Made by a program: the position numbers and the translations under genes. From Parvibaculaceae bacterium PLY_AMNH_Bact1 (GTDB taxonomy: Bacteria; Pseudomonadota; Alphaproteobacteria; Parvibaculales; Parvibaculaceae): a stretch of 64,000 bases of DNA. Positions 8,997-40,369 of this stretch are shown here, one piece after another (position 1 is the stretch's first letter; each line of letters starts with the position of its first letter). Below the pieces are notes generated by a model. It was given only the letters and a program-made list of their open reading frames with translations, was not told the origin of the DNA and did no database searches. Location: positions 1,426,001 to 1,490,000 of the forward strand of contig CP126168.1 of the NCBI GenBank assembly GCA_032881465.1. The letters run 5' to 3'.

Positions 8997-9127
8997 CCGG
9001 GTTCTCTCGGTCACAATCCCTCGATTTCCCGCGACTTTTCCCGAGTTTTCTTGACTCTTGCCCGTCTGTTTTGGAGGCTGGCCCAGCAATCGCGTCATAG
9101 GTGGGGTACGGAAAAGGGGCAATGGGG

Positions 9128-10852
9128 ATGATCTCCAAGGTAGGTGAGTTTTTTGGCCCATCCGTAAGGAAAGTGGTCGTTGGTGTCGGCATCGCCGTGA
9201 GCATGGTTTGCGTCAGCCTGAGTACAGCGAGTGCGGCTCCTGCGCAGTCTTGGCGGATCACCCAGGAAACCTGGACTGAAACAGACGAGCGTGGGTACTC
9301 GGAGTTTGTCGCCGCCATAGGGGCAGCAGACTGCTGGAACGTCGATGATTGCCTGGAGAGTCCGGCAAACCCCTATCGGCATCGCCATGGGTATATGAGC
9401 TTTCGAGCCGACTGCGCTGATTTCCCCTACCTGTTTCGAGCTTATTACGCATGGATGAATGGGCTACCCTTCGCTTACCAGAATGGTGTCCTCCCACAGT
9501 CTGGTTGGACCCGGGACATTCGCTATACCCGTGGGGGCAATCGGGTCGTTTCTCGCAAGTCTGTTCCGGCAACAGCAAATGGGATCAACGCCAACTCCAT
9601 TCTGGTGGATCTAAGAAGCGCCATCTCTACTGGCAGCTATCGGCACCATGCCGCAGCAAATGATCAGACCTATTTCACCGACATGTACTCGCCCGTCATT
9701 GACCGTGGCTCAATCCGACCGGGCACCATTGTCTATGATGTGAACGGGCATGTTGTGCTGGTTTGGCGCGTGGAGGATGATGGGCGGGTGCTGACATTGT
9801 CGGCGCACCCCGATAATTCTGTGTCCCGCTCTTTTTATGGACGGAACTTCCTTCGAACTCATCCCCGGCTGGGAACTGGGTTTAAAGAATGGCGCCCCGT
9901 TCGTCTCGTGGGAGCAACACGGCTTGCCGATGGTACTTTGGTTGGTGGACACATAGAGGCCACACCGAACCAGGCCCTTCCTAACTACTCCCTTATGCAA
10001 TACGTGGGAACCGACACGACAGACGCGTCAAAGCGAGCGCTGGATCAGTGGCGGCAGGCATCGTTTGCCAGAAATGGAGAGACGCTCGACTATTATCATT
10101 ATGTCCGAGCAGTCATGGCGCGCGGCAATCTGGTGATGGAGCCAGTCCGAGAAATTCGTTCGTCCATGCGCTCCCTCTGCAATGACGTTCGTGCAAGGAA
10201 ACAGGCGGTTGACGCGGCCATTATGAACGGCATCGATAAGGTGAACGCACCGGGCCGCCTGCCTCAGAACATCTACGGCACATTCGGCTATTGGGAGTTC
10301 TACTCAACACCGTCCCGTGATGCCCGCTTGAAAACCGCCCTTAAGGAGCAGCGGGACCACGTGGAAGCGCTGATTGAGATGCACCGTCAGGGCGCCTCGA
10401 CGGTGACCTATGAGGGCAGCGACCTGATCGGTGACCTGATCAACGCCTATGACGAAGAAAGCGCTAATTGCGTAACCGCCTATGCTCGGTCCAATGGAGC
10501 ACCAGTGCGCCTCTCGCTCGATGATGTAATCGGGCGTGTCTACGATCTTTCCTTTGATCCTTACCAGTGCATCGAGCGTCGGTGGGGGGCGACAGATCCG
10601 TCTGAGCTGGCCTCTTGTGCTGACGGTGCGGCAAAAGACCGTTGGTACCGAGCGCAGCGTTTCTTACGAAATCAGATTGATCGGACCTATGACGTGGATA
10701 TGGGCTACACGCCGGCGCAGCTTGAAGCAGGTCCCCATGATCTGTTTTCCGGCCGTGGCGTCGCTGAAGGACCCGATGTGGATGTAAGAGGCTTTCTTAC
10801 TTCTCTCAAAGATCGACGCCAAGCCTCAATCGGAGATCCTGCCGTTCGTTAA
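9128..10852 (+). CDS. Secreted NlpC/P60-like (papain-fold) protein
   Basis: This is a 574-residue exported protein from the ATG at 9128, chosen because AAGGGG (9114-9119) is 8 nt upstream. In-frame starts at 9101 and 9122 are less well placed. A signal peptide covers roughly residues 1-36, with a likely cut after ASA. A papain-like NlpC/P60/CHAP arrangement follows: Cys96 in ADCADF at a helix start, His208 in NGHVVLVW, and His227/Asp229 in SAHPDN as third polar residues. Such enzymes usually cleave peptidoglycan stem peptides. The C-terminal ~330 residues are helical, Arg-rich and unrecognised. Family placement is my reading of the motif pattern and would need a profile search. Confidence 0.72.
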   Translation: MISKVGEFFGPSVRKVVVGVGIAVSMVCVSLSTASAAPAQSWRITQETWTETDERGYSEFVAAIGAADCWNVDDCLESPANPYRHRHGYMSFRADCADFPYLFRAYYAWMNGLPFAYQNGVLPQSGWTRDIRYTRGGNRVVSRKSVPATANGINANSILVDLRSAISTGSYRHHAAANDQTYFTDMYSPVIDRGSIRPGTIVYDVNGHVVLVWRVEDDGRVLTLSAHPDNSVSRSFYGRNFLRTHPRLGTGFKEWRPVRLVGATRLADGTLVGGHIEATPNQALPNYSLMQYVGTDTTDASKRALDQWRQASFARNGETLDYYHYVRAVMARGNLVMEPVREIRSSMRSLCNDVRARKQAVDAAIMNGIDKVNAPGRLPQNIYGTFGYWEFYSTPSRDARLKTALKEQRDHVEALIEMHRQGASTVTYEGSDLIGDLINAYDEESANCVTAYARSNGAPVRLSLDDVIGRVYDLSFDPYQCIERRWGATDPSELASCADGAAKDRWYRAQRFLRNQIDRTYDVDMGYTPAQLEAGPHDLFSGRGVAEGPDVDVRGFLTSLKDRRQASIGDPAVR

Positions 10853-14385: not shown

Positions 14386-14940
14386 TCAGGTTGCGGCGAC
14401 CGGTGCATCTCCTGCAGCGGAAAGTTTCTTGGCGACCCCGTCCAGCATGCCTTTCACGATCATCTTGTGAAAAGGCAAAATAGCCGCCAGATAGAGATGC
14501 CCGAACAGGTTATGGCGCTGGCAACAGGTGGCGAGATAAAGCCTGGATGGCACCTCTTGGGCACGGAAGATAGATACCCGAAAATCCTGATGTGTATCGT
14601 CCTCGCCCAGGATGACCTCGTTCTCACTGATGCTATAGATCTTGAAAAAACCAATTCTGTCCCCGACCTGCGGCTCTGGCTTTTGGTTGGCGTCATCTTG
14701 GTCATCGAAATCGTCTGCCGTCTTAAGACCCATAGGGCTCACGATCAGATCGCGGAGCCGCATGAGCGGCTGTGCGCCGGGGACCTCCACGGCGGTGGCG
14801 AGTGCGGCAATCTCTGGCATGGTTGCCTGGGTTTTCGCCCACTCATTGCTGAAGGCGACGCTGAAGCAATCCATGAAATCTTGTGATCGCGCATAGGCGT
14901 GGAGTTGGCTCTGAGCAGGCAGGGTATCTGATCGGGACAT
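14386..14940 (-). CDS. DUF2867 family protein
   Basis: This 184-residue soluble protein of unknown function matches the DUF2867 pattern. It has a central DRIGFFKIYSISENEVILGEDD strand pair followed by FRVSIF, then a Cys-Cys-x-x-His motif leading into a C-terminal helix (HNLFGHLYLAAILPFHKMIV). An AAAGG ribosome site precedes the ATG. A perfect 18-bp palindrome lies 32 nt upstream of the start, which suggests control by a dimeric repressor not encoded here. It is divergent from the small SOS-box gene. Confidence 0.85.
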   Translation of the reverse strand: MSRSDTLPAQSQLHAYARSQDFMDCFSVAFSNEWAKTQATMPEIAALATAVEVPGAQPLMRLRDLIVSPMGLKTADDFDDQDDANQKPEPQVGDRIGFFKIYSISENEVILGEDDTHQDFRVSIFRAQEVPSRLYLATCCQRHNLFGHLYLAAILPFHKMIVKGMLDGVAKKLSAAGDAPVAAT

Positions 14941-15098: not shown

Positions 15099-15124
15099 TT
15101 GACAGAAAAGAACAAAACATGAAC
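15099..15124 (+). promoter_or_regulatory. Promoter with SOS (LexA) box upstream of the 47-codon gene
   Basis: A perfect -35 TTGACA (15099-15104) is followed by GAAC-AAAACAT-GAAC at 15110-15124. This is the alphaproteobacterial LexA box GAAC-N7-GAAC with an A/T-rich spacer, as in the lexA promoter of this same window (40341-40355). The box fills the -35/-10 spacer. The -10 is weak (AACACT, 15122-15127, 17-nt spacing). About two exact matches to the 8 fixed bases are expected by chance per window on both strands. Placement between a TTGACA and a perfect ribosome site is what makes this one credible. Confidence 0.65.
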
Positions 15125-15153
15125 ACTTGGGGTTCAACAGGAGGATCAAGATC

Positions 15154-15297
15154 GTGACCAAGCTGATCAAAAAGGTTGAAGCAGAAGGTGGCGTCTCACG
15201 CTGGTTTCAGGATATCGCGGCATTGGCGAGTGTCGCCGCTATGGGGTGGACCGTCCTCCTCTGGAGCGAGATAGCTAAGGCCGCTGTCGCGGGATAA
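15154..15297 (+). CDS. Small single-span membrane protein, probably SOS-induced
   Basis: This 47-codon gene starts at GTG, with AGGAGGA (15139-15145) exactly 8 nt upstream, the best ribosome site in the area. The product has a short basic amphipathic N-terminus (TKLIKKVEAEGG), then SRWFQDIAALASVAAMGW leading into one membrane span (about residues 20-41), and a short Ala-rich tail. A LexA box overlaps the promoter. I know no named family. By analogy with Caulobacter SidA, a very short SOS-induced membrane protein that blocks division, a division-inhibitor role is an inference only. dnaE starts 124 nt downstream in the same direction and may be co-transcribed. Confidence 0.7.
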   Translation: MTKLIKKVEAEGGVSRWFQDIAALASVAAMGWTVLLWSEIAKAAVAG

Positions 15298-15326: not shown

Positions 15327-15355
15327 GGACGGGTGACACGGCGGGGGCCGCGTCC
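15327..15355 (+). other. Hairpin between the small SOS-box gene and dnaE
   Basis: A stem GGACG/CGTCC (15327-15331 with 15351-15355) encloses CGGC-GGGG-GCCG (15339-15350). No T-run follows, so it is a poor intrinsic terminator. It may be an attenuating or mRNA-stabilising structure in the dnaE leader. Confidence 0.35.
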
Positions 15356-15421
15356 GACAATGGGCATCTGAAGGAATATGCTGGCGCATCATTTGATGGG
15401 TCGCCCCTTCAACAGTCGTGA

Positions 15422-18400
15422 ATGAGAGCCCCCATGTCTAAAAACATATCTGGCAAAAAATCCCGCGCCTTGCATGCGAGCCTGCAAGGGAGTCCAGAAG
15501 GCAACCAAGAAGCAGATCTGCAGTTCATCCATCTTCGGCTCCATTCAGCCTATTCGCTTCTTGAGGGCGCGATCCGCCTCAAAGATCTACCAGGTCTTGT
15601 TCGCGATGGCGGCATGCCCGCTGTGGGCATCACCGATACGGGCAATCTGTTTGGCGCACTGGAGGCGTCGGAGACCCTCTCAAAGGCGGGTATTCAGCCC
15701 ATAACAGGGTGCACCTTGGCGCTGGACTTAGGGCTTGATGACGACGGGCCTGGCCTTGGTCGCAATGAGCGGAAAGACCCGGACGGGTCCATTGCTCTCC
15801 TCGTACAGAACGAACAGGGGTACGCCAATCTGATGCGGCTTACCTCCAAAGCCTATTTGGAGACCGAGGGCACTGATGATCCCCATATCTCCTTTGATGA
15901 GTTGGCGACGCTGAGCGAGGGGCTTATTTGCCTGACGGGCGGTCCCGCTGGACCCGTCAACCGGCTTTTGGTGGAGGGACAGCAGGATAAGGCAAAAGAG
16001 GTCCTGGCACGCTTTCAGACCATGTTCCCTGATCGTCTTTATGTGGAGTTACAGCGTCACGGGATGGCGGAAGAGGGGCAGGCAGAAGGACCGCTGATCG
16101 ACTTTGCCTATGAAATGGATTTGCCTCTGGTCGCCACCAATGAGTGCTTCTTTACGAAGAAGGACGAGTTTGAGGCTCATGATGCACTGATCTGTATCTC
16201 TGCAGGTGCCTATGTCATTGAGACTGAGCGACGGCGCCTGACCCCAGAGCATTATTTCAAGAGCCAGGCAGAGATGGTGGAGTTGTTTAACGACCTTCCA
16301 GAAGCCATTGAAAATACGATAGAAATAGCCCGCAGGTGTGCCTATCGGCCTCACACGCGGGACCCGATCCTGCCAAGTTTTGGGTCCGGTGATGGCGAGG
16401 TGAGTGAAGCTGATGAGTTGCGGCGCCAAGCCCATGACGGGCTAACCCAACGGCTGGCTGAGACGGAAACAGTCGCCGATGAGAAGGAATATCGGGACCG
16501 CCTGGATTTTGAACTTGATGTCATCATCAATATGGATTTTCCGGGCTACTTCCTGATCGTGGCGGACTTCATCAAATGGGCCAAAGATCACGATATTCCT
16601 GTGGGGCCGGGTCGTGGGTCCGGTGCCGGGTCGGTGGTCGCCTGGGTCCTGACCATCACAGATCTGGACCCCCTGAGGTTTAACCTCCTGTTTGAGCGGT
16701 TTTTGAACCCTGAACGTGTGTCGATGCCGGACTTTGACATCGATTTTTGTCAGGACCGGCGCGATGAGGTGATCCGCTATGTGCAGGATCGCTACGGCCA
16801 CGATCAGGTGGCCCAGATCATCACCTTCGGAAAGCTTCAGGCACGCGCTGTGCTGCGGGACGTGGGACGCGTGCTGCAAATGCCTTTTGGTCAGGTCGAC
16901 CGTCTTTGCAAGATGATCCCGAACAACCCGGCGAACCCGGTAACGCTTGCGGAAGCCATTGAAGGCGAGCCCCGGCTTCGTGAAGAGCGGGACAGCGAGG
17001 AAGCTGTCGCCAAGCTCCTGGAGATGGGGCTCCGTCTTGAGGGGCTCTATAGGCACGCCTCGACCCATGCCGCCGGTGTGGTGATTGGGGACCGCCCGCT
17101 GGATCAGTTGGTACCTCTCTACCGCGACCCGCGCTCCGACATGCCTGTCACTCAGTTCAATATGAAATGGGTGGAGCCAGCAGGGCTCGTAAAGTTTGAC
17201 TTTCTGGGCCTTAAAACCCTGACAGTGCTGCAAAAGGCCGTCGAGCTCATTGAACGTCGCGGCATCAAGCTGGACCTGTCCAACCTGCCCCTGGATGACG
17301 AGAAATCCTACCAGATGCTTCAGCGCGGAGAGACCGTCGGGGTCTTCCAGCTGGAAAGTGGCGGCATGCGGGACCTGATCCGTCAGGCGGTTCCCACCAC
17401 GATTGAAGACATTATCGCTCTTGTGGCGCTCTACCGCCCGGGACCAATGGAGAACATCCCTAAATACCTGGCCTGTAAGCATGGTCGGGAGGAACCTGAA
17501 GTCCTCCATGAGACCATCGAGCCGGTGGTCGCCGACACTTATGGCGTGATCATCTACCAGGAACAGGTGATGCAGGTGGCCCAGGTCTTTGCGGGGTACT
17601 CGCTGGGTGACGCTGACCTGCTGCGCCGCGCCATGGGTAAAAAGATCAAATCCGAGATGGATGCCCAGCGCGCCCGCTTCGTGGAAGGAGCGGCGGCAAA
17701 GGGCGTGCCTGAGAAGCAAGCAAACTACGTTTTCGACATTGTCGATAAGTTCGCAGGCTACGGCTTCAACAAATCCCACTCCGCCTGCTACGCCCTGGTC
17801 GCCTATCAGACTGCCTATCTGAAGGCGAACTACCCGGTTGAGTTCCTGGCAGCCTCCATGAGCCTGGACTTGAACAACACGGAAAAACTCCATGTTTTCA
17901 AGCAGGAAGCAGATCAACTTAAGATAAAAGTTTGTCCACCAAGCGTTCAGGATTCCAAAGCCGTCTTTGATGTGAAGGATGGACAGATCCTCTACGCGTT
18001 GGGCGCCATCAAAAATGTTGGTCGTCAGGCGATGGAGCAATTGGCAGAAGAGCGGGAGGAAAACGGGCCCTTCAAAGACCTGTTTGATTTTGCCCGCAGG
18101 CTCAATCCCAAAGGCATCAACAAGCGCCAACTGGAAAACCTCGTGCGCGCAGGTGCCCTTGATTGCTTGAACCCCAACAGGGCTCAATTGCTGGCCTCCG
18201 TGGATCTGATCATGAGCCTTGCCAACCAGGCGGCAAGTGAGCGTGAAAGCAATCAGGTGAGCCTATTCGGCGATGCCATGGAAAACGATATGGACAATCC
18301 GGTGCTGCCCCAGGTTGAACCCTGGCTGCCCATGGACCGTCTAAATGAGGAGTTCAACGCGGTCGGTTTCTACATTTCGGGCCATCCGTTGGACGATTAT

Positions 18401-18937
18401 GCCAAGGCCATGAAGCAGACCGGTGTCGTGACCTATGCGGAGCTGCTGCAGAAGACATCAAGCGCCGAGCGGGTTGCGGGCACCGTGGCCGCCCGGCAAG
18501 ACCGACGTTCAAAACAGGGCAATCCTTTCGCTTTTGTGACCCTGTCCGACCCGACGGGCCGGTTTGAGGTGGTGGTCTTCTCAGAAGCCCTCAATTCCTT
18601 CCGGGATCTGCTGGAACCAGGCCGTTCCGTGGTGATCGGCGTGGAAATTGACCGGGATGGGGACGAAGTGCGCCTACGTGCGCAGTCTGTTCGGCCAGTG
18701 GATGAGGTCGCTGCCACAGCCGCAGATGGCCTTAAAATCTTCCTGGATACGCCCGAACCGCTCTCATCCGTCAAATCCCGTCTGCCAGATCAGGGCAGAG
18801 GAGTGGTGTCGCTGGTTTTGCTGGCCGGCCAGGGGCGCGAAGTGGAGGTAGAGTTGAAGGAGCGCTTCCACATCACCCCGCCAGTGAGAGCTGCCATTCA
18901 GGCTGTGCCCGGTGTCGTGGATGTCCAGGACATCTGA
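15422..18937 (+). CDS. dnaE: DNA polymerase III subunit alpha
   Basis: This is the replicative C-family polymerase (1171 residues, normal length for DnaE1). An N-terminal PHP domain begins at HLRLHSAYSLLEGA (residues 37-50). The polymerase metal-binding aspartates are in PDFDIDF (D437, D439), preceded by GPGRGSGAGSVVAW. A C-terminal OB fold follows (around residues 1010-1100). Two in-frame ATGs, at 15422 and 15434, compete and neither has a strong ribosome site, though GAGAG lies just before the second. A leader with a hairpin separates it from the small LexA-box gene. If they share a transcript, dnaE would be partly SOS-controlled (inference). A 581-codon antisense frame inside it is not a gene. 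Confidence 0.97.
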   Translation: MRAPMSKNISGKKSRALHASLQGSPEGNQEADLQFIHLRLHSAYSLLEGAIRLKDLPGLVRDGGMPAVGITDTGNLFGALEASETLSKAGIQPITGCTLALDLGLDDDGPGLGRNERKDPDGSIALLVQNEQGYANLMRLTSKAYLETEGTDDPHISFDELATLSEGLICLTGGPAGPVNRLLVEGQQDKAKEVLARFQTMFPDRLYVELQRHGMAEEGQAEGPLIDFAYEMDLPLVATNECFFTKKDEFEAHDALICISAGAYVIETERRRLTPEHYFKSQAEMVELFNDLPEAIENTIEIARRCAYRPHTRDPILPSFGSGDGEVSEADELRRQAHDGLTQRLAETETVADEKEYRDRLDFELDVIINMDFPGYFLIVADFIKWAKDHDIPVGPGRGSGAGSVVAWVLTITDLDPLRFNLLFERFLNPERVSMPDFDIDFCQDRRDEVIRYVQDRYGHDQVAQIITFGKLQARAVLRDVGRVLQMPFGQVDRLCKMIPNNPANPVTLAEAIEGEPRLREERDSEEAVAKLLEMGLRLEGLYRHASTHAAGVVIGDRPLDQLVPLYRDPRSDMPVTQFNMKWVEPAGLVKFDFLGLKTLTVLQKAVELIERRGIKLDLSNLPLDDEKSYQMLQRGETVGVFQLESGGMRDLIRQAVPTTIEDIIALVALYRPGPMENIPKYLACKHGREEPEVLHETIEPVVADTYGVIIYQEQVMQVAQVFAGYSLGDADLLRRAMGKKIKSEMDAQRARFVEGAAAKGVPEKQANYVFDIVDKFAGYGFNKSHSACYALVAYQTAYLKANYPVEFLAASMSLDLNNTEKLHVFKQEADQLKIKVCPPSVQDSKAVFDVKDGQILYALGAIKNVGRQAMEQLAEEREENGPFKDLFDFARRLNPKGINKRQLENLVRAGALDCLNPNRAQLLASVDLIMSLANQAASERESNQVSLFGDAMENDMDNPVLPQVEPWLPMDRLNEEFNAVGFYISGHPLDDYAKAMKQTGVVTYAELLQKTSSAERVAGTVAARQDRRSKQGNPFAFVTLSDPTGRFEVVVFSEALNSFRDLLEPGRSVVIGVEIDRDGDEVRLRAQSVRPVDEVAATAADGLKIFLDTPEPLSSVKSRLPDQGRGVVSLVLLAGQGREVEVELKERFHITPPVRAAIQAVPGVVDVQDI

Positions 18938-37324: not shown

Positions 37325-39499
37325 ATGAGTATTTTTCGAAAAATTCTGCCTCATCTTGGGCCCAAATGGTCTTTTGAGGACGCAAAAGGTCTCATTGAGA
37401 GCGACGCTCGACGCTTGCGACAGCGTTGGCGGGACCTCTGTGCCGGTGAACAGGCCAATCTGAGCCTTTGGGTGCCCATCGGCATTGCTGGGGGAATCGC
37501 TGTCTATTTTTCTCTACCTACTGAACCTTATGTCGGATGGTCAATTGTCTGCTTTCTCTGTGCTGCCCTTGCCGTCTATCTAATGCGCAACAGGGGCTGG
37601 CTGGCGATCGCTGCTGCGCTGGTCCTTTGTGCAGCACTTGGGTTCCTGGCAGCTCAACTGCGCACTCTCAGCGTGGCAGCGCCGGTGCTACACGCGGAAA
37701 TGCGAGGGGCCCCGATAGAAGGTCGGGTCATGCAGGCGAGCCTGAACCAGGAAGGAGGCACAACCCTTCTCCTAAAGCCGACCTTTATCGGCGGATTGCC
37801 GGACGAGGGGCTTCCGGCACGTGTCCGGCTCCGAGTGCGTCAGGAACATGCGCCGATCTGGCCAGGTGATGAAATTAAGACCCGGGCCATGCTGTGGCCT
37901 CCAGCAGAACCGGTTGCCCCAGGCGCGTTCGACTTTGCACGGCAGGCCTGGTTTCGAGGGTTGGGTGGGACAGGTGTCACCCTTGTGGCTCCTGACATAT
38001 TGAGCACCGGGCAATTAGCGGGGTGGCAGATAACCATCGCATCGGTGCGGGAGACAGTCGCCCGTCATGTAATTGAGTCCATGTCCAAAGAGGAAGGACC
38101 TGTCGCAGCTGCACTCATGACGGGCTTGAGGCACGCCATCGACGATGATGTTGAACAAGACCTTCGCGATGCAGGGCTCGCTCACATTCTGGCGATTTCA
38201 GGGCTTCACATGGCCCTTTTTGCAGGCACGTTGTTTTGGTTGGTTCGGGCAGCGTTGGCACTTTTCCCACCACTGGCACATCGGTATCCCATTAAGAAGT
38301 GGGCAGCATCGATCGCGCTGGTGGGCGCTCTTGCATATCTCTTTCTCTCAGGTGGATCGGTCGCGACCCAAAGAGCGTTCATTATGGCTGCCCTCATGTT
38401 CATCGCAGTGCTAATCGATCGACCCGCATTCTCCCTGCGCAACGTCGCCCTGGCAGCCGTCATCGTTCTGCTGATGAGGCCGGAAAGTCTGTTGGAGCCT
38501 GGATTTCAGATGTCATTTGCTGCGGTGACCGCTCTGGTAGCCGTTTATCAAAAACAGGAGTTGCAACTTCTGCGCTTCAAGGAAAACGCGACGGGCCTGT
38601 CTGGTGCCATGCGCTTGGGCACCGTCTATATGATCACTTTGTGCATCACGAGCCTGGTTGCGGGAGCGGCGACAGCGCCCTTTGCGGCCTTCCATTTCAA
38701 TCGGATGGCAGCTTTTGGGCTTGTAGGCAACATGGCTGCGATGCCGTTGGTAGGTACACTGATCATGCCCTCGGCACTTATCGCCTACATCCTCATGCCA
38801 TTAGGGTTGGAGGCCCCCGCACTTTGGGTGATGGAGGTGGGACTTGCTGGTGTCATCTGGGTTGCCGACGAAGTCAGCAATTGGGCTGGCGCGGTTGTGA
38901 CCATCGGGTCGTTCTCAACTTTCGCTCTTGCTTTGATCTCGCTGGGCGGCGCCTGGATAGCACTCTGGCAGACCAGCCTCCGTCGTGCAGGTGTGATCCC
39001 GCTTCTCCTTGGCTTTTATCTGGCATCACATCCAAATACGCCTGACATTCTGGTGAACCGGGATGCGAAGCTTGCGGCAGTGAAAGAAGAAGGTGGGCGT
39101 TACCTTTGGTCGGGCCGAACCCCCCGATATGCACGTGAAAGCTGGTTGCGACGAAATGGCGAGGCTCCGGATACGAACATCTCCGAGCGCCGGTTGCCTT
39201 GTGATGATATTGGATGCGTGGCTGAAGGAACACCAATCGTAGCACTTCCAACATCGTCTGCAGCGCTCGACGATGACTGTCGGGAAGCAAATATCGTGAT
39301 CGCGTCAGTTCCCGTTCGCCGAATGGCGCGTGAGTCCTGCAACGCCATTCTGATCATTGATCGCTTTGATGTTGCGCGCGAAGGTGCCCATGCAATCTAT
39401 CTTGACGAAGATGGCAATATCGAGCGTGTGGAAACGGTGCGCGACTGGCGCGGTGCCAGACCCTGGTCAGGCCCCTCGTCGGGATGGGACCCTCAGTAG
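37325..39499 (+). CDS. comEC: ComEC/Rec2 family DNA uptake channel protein
   Basis: This is the inner-membrane channel for DNA uptake in natural transformation. The 724-residue protein has an N-terminal membrane and OB-like region (DUF4131) and the ComEC signature [20 protein letters not shown] near residue 285, followed by many helices. The C-terminal ~150 residues contain no HxHxDH, so the metallo-beta-lactamase-like nuclease domain of the Bacillus type is absent or degenerate. No other competence gene is nearby. The end overlaps the convergent lexA by 7 nt. Confidence 0.9.
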
Positions 39500-40191
39500 C
39501 GACGAAGCAATCCGACAAGCCGACCCTGAACTTTCACACGGTCAGGCCCAAAAATCCGGGTCTCATAGGCAGGATTGGCGGCTTCCAAAGCCACGGAGTT
39601 CCCTTTACGACGCAGGCGCTTCAGGGTCGCTTCCTGATCATCAACAAGCGCCACAACAATCTCGCCATTGTTGGCCGTATCACAGCGCTCAATTACCACT
39701 GTGTCTCCGTCGAGAATTCCCGCATCAATCATCGAGTCGCCTTTGACCTCAAGGGCGTAATGCTCACCTCGCGCCAGCATATCGACAGGAACAGATACCT
39801 GATGGCTTTCTTCCTGCAGGGCTTCAATCGGGGTACCAGCGGCAATCCGGCCCATGACTGATATAGGCATGGCGTCTTCATTAGCGGGCAGCGTGGAAGG
39901 CATCTGCGTCTTCCCAAGACTGCCTTCAATGACGGAGGGCGAGAAACCGCTGTTCCGTCCAAAACTTGGAGACGCGGACTCAGGCAGCTTTAGAATCTCA
40001 AGTGCACGGGCACGATGGGGTAACCGTCGCAGAAATCCACGCTCTTCCAAAGCAGTGATCAGCCGGTGAATACCGGATTTGGATCGAAGATCCAGCGCAT
40101 CCTTCATCTCATCGAAGGAAGGAGACACACCAGTCTCTTTGATCCGTTCGTTGATGAACATAAGCAATTCGTGTTGTTTGCGCGTCAGCAT
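39493..40191 (-). CDS. lexA: LexA repressor
   Basis: Master repressor of the SOS response (232 residues). It has an N-terminal winged helix-turn-helix (residues ~1-65) and a C-terminal S24 self-cleavage domain. The cleavage site is Ala118-Gly119 in RIAAGT, the nucleophile is Ser153 in GDSM, and the general base is Lys191 in ATLKRL. GGAGA lies 7 nt before the ATG. The promoter carries a perfect GTTC-N7-GTTC box, so the gene is autoregulated. It probably also controls the small gene at 15154. Confidence 0.97.
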
Positions 40192-40301: not shown

Positions 40302-40340
40302 CTCATCAGAGTCGAGAACAAATCAAAAACATCTGATTCT

Positions 40341-40369
40341 GTTCTAGTTTGGTTCTCGTGAACCGTCAA
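40341..40369 (-). promoter_or_regulatory. lexA promoter with LexA (SOS) box
   Basis: On the minus strand, -35 TTGACG (40364-40369), a 17-nt spacer and -10 TAGAAC (40341-40346) form a good promoter. The SOS box GAAC-N7-GAAC (40341-40355) covers the -10 and half the spacer, so LexA would block polymerase. A degenerate second box (GAAC-N7-AAAC on the plus strand) starts near 40316. Confidence 0.85.

Follow-up and report, generated by a model that had tools for sequence, protein, structure and literature searches.

The 47-codon frame that stands directly 5' of dnaE in the window (i.e., the whole 64,000-nucleotide stretch of DNA analyzed here) very probably encodes a homolog of the Caulobacter cell division inhibitor SidA, at a conserved sidA-dnaE place. 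This reading is based on the match between two sequence profiles (A1 and A2; see below), the LexA box, and the position before dnaE. We consider it quite likely that the product is a LexA-repressed, damage-induced membrane peptide that blocks FtsW/FtsI/FtsN and cell division. The frame, the selection on its protein, the conservation of its box, and its homology to SidA are supported by direct sequence comparison and taken as shown; LexA binding, induction, topology, the FtsW target, and division arrest are features that we infer.

Organization of the locus

The elements that an earlier note on this DNA had described (i.e., TTGACA, an exact GAAC-N7-GAAC box, AGGAGGA 8 nt before a GTG, a frame of 47 codons, and one membrane span) were all confirmed in the sequence (Table 1). 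The product of the sidA-like gene in the window is VTKLIKKVEAEGGVSRWFQDIAALASVAAMGWTVLLWSEIAKAAVAG (47 aa), and 124 nt separate its stop codon from the dnaE start. A good -10 hexamer was absent at the right spacing after TTGACA (AACACT at 15122 to 15127 matches 3 of 6 positions, by eye), and a consensus promoter scan of the window called no promoter at the TTGACA/box site. The lexA gene lies in the same window, 24 kb from the sidA-like gene; its identity and the exact box at its promoter bear out the earlier statement that both promoters carry the same box form. Extra half-sites (single GAAC and GTTC words) occur near the lexA box (40314 to 40362), so LexA may occupy more than one site at this promoter.

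Table 1 Features of the sidA-like locus, dnaE, and lexA in the window
Feature	Position	Strand	Remarks
-35-like hexamer TTGACA	15099-15104	+	Read in sequence
LexA box GAACAAAACATGAAC, exact GAAC-N7-GAAC	15110-15124	+	5 nt 3' of -35-like hexamer
Ribosome-binding site AGGAGGA	15139-15145	+	8 nt 5' of start codon
sidA-like gene, 47 aa	15154-15297	+	GTG start at 15154, TAA at 15295-15297; previously unannotated
Likely membrane span (approximately residues 21-37), holding the SidA-like core	15214-15264	+	Aligned core; modeled helix 13-46; limits by eye
Weak promoter-like site GTGACA-17-GACAAT, possibly dnaE's own	15333-15361	+	9/12 match; 0.4 expected
dnaE, DNA polymerase III alpha subunit	15422-18937	+	Pfam PF07733, PF17657, PF02811, PF14579
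lexA	39493-40191	-	TIGR00498, 180 bits
LexA box GAACCAAACTAGAAC, exact, 5' of lexA	40341-40355	-	Pattern scan

The genes 5' of the locus are proS-like, lolC-like, and lolD-like, and those 3' of dnaE are rpsB, tsf, and a pyrH-like amino acid kinase gene; the names proS, lolC, and pyrH are interpretations of Pfam matches, and the NCBIfam match of LolD is below its cutoff. A DUF2867 gene (14386 to 14940, minus strand) lies between the lolD-like and sidA-like genes on the opposite strand. A 583-aa open frame (9101 to 10852, plus strand), for which no Pfam or NCBIfam match was found at an E value of ≤0.001, lies 5' of the proS-like gene and contains the third exact GAAC-N7-GAAC of the window (9844 to 9858), probably by chance.

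Protein-level selection on the frame

In the three nearest congeners (L002 to L004), the start is ATG at the codon that is GTG in the window, and the ribosome-binding site has an identical position. Among four congeners, dS ranged from 0.26 to 3.2 and dN from 0 to 0.08. Ten further pairs, some with common members, gave a pooled pS of 0.207 and a pooled pN of 0.042; one of them (L010/L011) was an exception in that silent change was not in excess. Judged from these alignments, the 47 codons make up a genuine gene under selection at the protein level.

Homology to Caulobacter SidA

SidA has been described as a 29-residue inner-membrane protein that is controlled by LexA and acts on FtsW/FtsI/FtsN (PMC4211646). 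In Caulobacter, sidA is CCNA_02004 (PMC11034885), its start codon is among those corrected via ribosome profiling (PMC4117421), dnaE is CC1926 (PMC1839093), and the LexA box is given as GTTC-N7-GTTC, i.e., the same motif on the opposite strand (PMC12700426).

Among the genome families searched, f57 was identified as Caulobacteraceae on the basis of CtrA (89 to 94% identity to the query sequence). This assignment agrees with a search of named genomes in which the DnaE N terminus of one f57 member served as the query: the loci kept are from Caulobacter, Brevundimonas, Phenylobacterium, Peiella, and relatives that are unclassified or loosely named. Family f63, to which genome G198 belongs, had been a candidate for Caulobacteraceae and was rejected on account of its many genera, a decision later borne out by the CtrA comparison; within f63, the G198 frame was strongly matched in 1 of 39 other genomes searched.

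We kept 80 Caulobacteraceae loci from 264 relatives, with at least one genome present twice. An exact box and a membrane frame precede dnaE in 62 of these loci, and a core-motif rule detected a SidA-like frame in 68 and none in the other 12. Since the rule favors ATG and a length near 29, its count of 45 frames of exactly 29 aa is biased toward that length. A contig titled Bordetella sp. (MAG; L212) carries a Caulobacteraceae-type sidA-dnaE locus, which probably reflects a misnamed or mixed record. In C. vibrioides DSM 9893 (L218), where sidA stands directly 5' of dnaE like the gene in the window, the 29-aa frame behind the LexA box matches the NCBIfam model NF033228 (“cell division inhibitor SidA”) along all 29 positions (1 to 29), scoring 72.4 bits (cutoff, 35); an in-frame ATG would also give 40 aa, and the 29-aa start rests on this full-length match. 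When 387 alphaproteobacterial genomes were searched with the same model, a single one, from f57, scored above the cutoff, and the model gave no match to the window protein at an E value of ≤1 and zero matches in the window organism's own genome at ≤0.1.

The two groups of proteins were compared as profiles. Profile A1 has 32 rows (31 from the window's family and 1 from f4) drawn from 34 loci, of which L003 duplicates L002 and L033 is truncated at the end of its contig; profile A2 comprises 31 of 47 distinct Caulobacteraceae SidA proteins of 29 to 31 aa. The hhalign comparison of A1 with A2 gave a probability of 95.3% (E value, 2.2e-8) over 23 columns with no gap and 26% identity. The common residues (i.e., D/E, A/S-L, S, V/I/C, and W within the span) belong to a SidA-like core of roughly [KRQ]-[DE]-x-x-[AS]-L-x-S-[VIC]-x4-W. 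Used on its own, A1 picked up SidA frames in three Caulobacteraceae genomes with E values of 3e-4, 0.0035, and 0.0185, a range in which unrelated places also score.

The window protein thus shares with Caulobacter SidA the LexA box, one membrane span, the place before dnaE, and the core residues, and it differs in its length, with approximately 14 extra N-terminal residues, and in escaping the curated model. Lengths are 39 to 51 aa in the window's family and 26 to 45 aa in ten surveyed families (see below), with starts chosen by the analyst. The frame had earlier been proposed as a further, unnamed member of the SidA/DidA class. A SidA-type short membrane protein with a conserved LexA box is indeed what we found; rather than a further, unnamed member, however, it is in all probability a SidA homolog at the sidA place.

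A SidA-descended, LexA-controlled membrane peptide could have taken on another job, such as disturbing the membrane potential, as the E. coli SOS peptides TisB and DinQ do. The shortness of the core match and the N-terminal extension, which has no counterpart in Caulobacter SidA, leave room for this reading. We nevertheless consider it improbable, given that the core D/E, L, and S and a W are held in common with SidA, that the gene occupies sidA's place, and that a search of the own genome with A1 gives a single match at an E value of ≤1.

Relationship to dnaE

The next gene is dnaE in 30 of the 34 loci L001 to L034. Projected from the window's DnaE start, the gap is 3 to 175 nt in 28 of these 30 (an estimated 3 to 34 nt in 11), and a slight overlap occurs in L024 and L034. 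Of the four remaining loci, L025 and L033 are cut by contig ends, while L015 and L030 keep the box and the frame and are without dnaE in the following 1.5 kb, where other reading frames stand in its place; sidA and dnaE are therefore separable. Two genomes of family f113 (L045 and L046) have a 31-aa SidA-like frame (e.g., MQIWLKDTLALVSLFALTWMGMAWIAVLDLT) with TTGAC and a one-mismatch box 5' of it; the frame follows a lolD-like end (by eye), and dnaE was not found in the locus.

SOS control of dnaE via read-through is possible. The earlier suggestion that dnaE is partly SOS inducible is compatible with its position as the next gene in most loci and with a scan of the window, which found no terminator-like site between the two genes; in L015 and L030, however, the box and the frame are kept and other genes come before any dnaE. 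In the main text of a Caulobacter SOS study, dnaE has 0 occurrences (PMC12700426).

The close spacing to dnaE and the lack of a terminator-like site would also suit an upstream frame or leader peptide that regulates dnaE through its translation and whose product is unimportant. This explanation was rejected as highly improbable on the grounds of amino acid-level selection on the frame and the displacement of dnaE in L015 and L030. The peptide is more than a dnaE leader, because these two loci and the two f113 loci keep the frame without dnaE. Furthermore, the predicted folding of the 124-nt intergenic RNA does not exceed that of shuffled sequences (z = -0.02), and Rfam revealed no RNA element in the window at gathering scores.

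Conservation of the LexA box

The box by itself is no evidence of function. The window contains 3 exact GAAC-N7-GAAC sites against 2.29 expected, which agrees with the earlier estimate of about two by chance. The genome as a whole shows no enrichment of the exact box (96 sites versus 128 for the reversed pattern), and a genome-wide SOS-box count was therefore rejected as a test of the regulon.

Among relatives, all 33 loci of the window's family from the first search and its follow-up (61 genomes searched) have an exact box 5' of the frame. Two further members with box and frame were found by profile A1 (L042 in G014) and by a dnaE search (L268 in G007, for which one in-frame TGA was reported within the dnaE frame). 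In the remaining 2 family genomes, G011 (68% complete) and G026 (approximately 400 contigs), dnaE was likewise undetected at the threshold used. The co-conservation check among relatives that had been proposed in the earlier note thus recovered both elements, box and frame, from 35 of the 37 genomes of the family, along with the constant ribosome-binding site in L002 to L004. The composite of box and frame is beyond chance, because the two are conserved, the positions of the ribosome-binding site and start are kept in L002 to L004, and the frame evolves as a protein. A chance box before an incidental open frame, for which the two or so exact sites expected per window could be adduced, deserves practically no credence, as it is already contradicted by this conservation within the family and by the occurrence of box and frame in 14 other families.

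The promoter layout varies between genera. An exact box lies 5' of the frame in all 34 loci L001 to L034, each with TTGAC[AG] at most 60 nt 5' of the last box. In the window's genus, a single box is located 3 to 6 nt 3' of TTGAC[AG]. The sister genus g5 (L012 to L033; n = 22) has tandem LexA sites: the first, after TTGAC[AG], is exact in 8 of 22 loci, and the second is exact. The first site, with at most one mismatch, lies exactly 26 nt 5' of the second exact box in 20 of the 22, and 25 nt 5' of it in L018 and L022 (by eye). Both the single and the tandem placement would be compatible with LexA repression.

Distribution across Alphaproteobacteria

A search of 387 alphaproteobacterial genomes with profile A1 led to four other families (f4, f57, f108, and f152) in which a short frame lies between a box and dnaE. 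Twenty-nine loci from this search were inspected, of which 15 adjoin dnaE and 14 do not; the latter include L045 and L046, the two f113 loci with a SidA-like frame and a one-mismatch box. Context, not score, decides for A1 matches, because other matches with similar E values are plainly unrelated.

We also surveyed the region upstream of dnaE in 80 further families, taking one genome per family from the 172 genomes (of 192) that had a dnaE match; f1, f4, f57, and f108, as families already seen, were left out, as were second genomes of a family, a number of fragments and small genomes, and unlisted places. An exact box (i.e., GAAC-N7-GAAC in dnaE orientation within approximately 750 nt 5' of the dnaE match) was present in 10 of the 80 families and absent in 70. 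The control patterns CAAG-N7-CAAG and CTTG-N7-CTTG occurred in 0 and 1 of the 80, respectively, and GTTC-N7-GTTC, the other orientation, in 7; frames behind a box were sought in dnaE orientation. In all 10 box-positive families, the box is followed by a frame of 26 to 45 aa with a hydrophobic span, while 572 of 7,000 trials (8%) gave a comparable frame when random points were taken in the 70 loci that lack the box. A sidA gene with a degenerate box would escape this survey, as frames were sought solely behind exact boxes.

The combination of box, short membrane frame, and dnaE was thus found in 15 families, the window's own included. Its occurrence is patchy. In another order, that of G047, an exact box precedes dnaE in 0 of 30 loci, which cover the 8 families of the order except f12 and f161. 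For divergent families (e.g., f104, f110, and f81), homology would be read mainly from position, box, and length.

Proposed function and comparison with known inhibitors

In undamaged cells, LexA bound to the box just 3' of the -35 hexamer would keep the gene off. DNA damage would activate RecA and lead to cleavage of LexA, upon which the peptide would be translated from its strong ribosome site. It would insert with its charged N terminus inside and one membrane span; K3, K6, K7, and R16 in the N-terminal part make this topology likely. The SidA-like core would then hold the FtsW/FtsI/FtsN complex inactive, so that septal wall synthesis and division would stop until LexA is rebuilt. An AlphaFold2 model of the peptide alone, computed without an alignment, has helices at residues 3 to 11 and 13 to 46 (mean pLDDT, 79.8; pTM, 0.37), which is the pattern that a short helix leading into a span should give. 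SidA itself has been predicted, with low confidence, to lie against TM7 of FtsW in a 2026 paper (PMC13396833).

Other division inhibitors resemble the candidate in part. DidA of Caulobacter is described as a small membrane protein that stops division via FtsW/I/N, but its induction is by DriD and SOS independent (PMC4211646); by this description it is set apart from the window frame with its LexA box. YneA, SosA, and ChiZ are small, SOS- or damage-induced membrane inhibitors with a proposed action on FtsW, and YneA and ChiZ are reported to carry a LysM domain (PMC13396833), whereas a Pfam search of the 47-aa protein gave no match and hence no LysM domain. SulA, which acts on FtsZ (PMC4211646), would have only the role of SOS division inhibitor in common with it. 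The SulA model PF03846 gave 0 matches in the own genome at an E value of ≤1, and SulA identity was rejected; the earlier statement that E. coli-type SulA is lacking is thereby borne out for this genome. In a control, PF03846 matched 5 of 14 genomes, including E. coli, and exceeded its cutoff in 1.

Implications

The accessible literature that we surveyed discusses SidA for Caulobacter only, and the curated model reaches its cutoff in a single alphaproteobacterial genome, as noted above. We encountered there no account of SidA homologs outside Caulobacter or of a class-wide sidA-dnaE linkage, which is not proof that none exists. Tentatively, and with the odds rather against it, sidA-dnaE could be an SOS unit of long standing in Alphaproteobacteria. 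On this view, SidA proteins would form a fast-evolving superfamily that annotation has overlooked outside Caulobacter; the superfamily would date back to an early ancestor that much of the class has in common, with retention in at least 15 families and loss in many. By read-through, LexA would link the arrest of division to an increased supply of the replicative polymerase, and the added N-terminal helix in the window's family would retune the target.

The findings suggest a wider distribution of SidA-type arrest at the FtsW/I/N step as an SOS checkpoint in Alphaproteobacteria, hidden from annotation because of the shortness of the gene. The dozens of natural variants may serve as an alignment for mapping the surface that stops FtsW.
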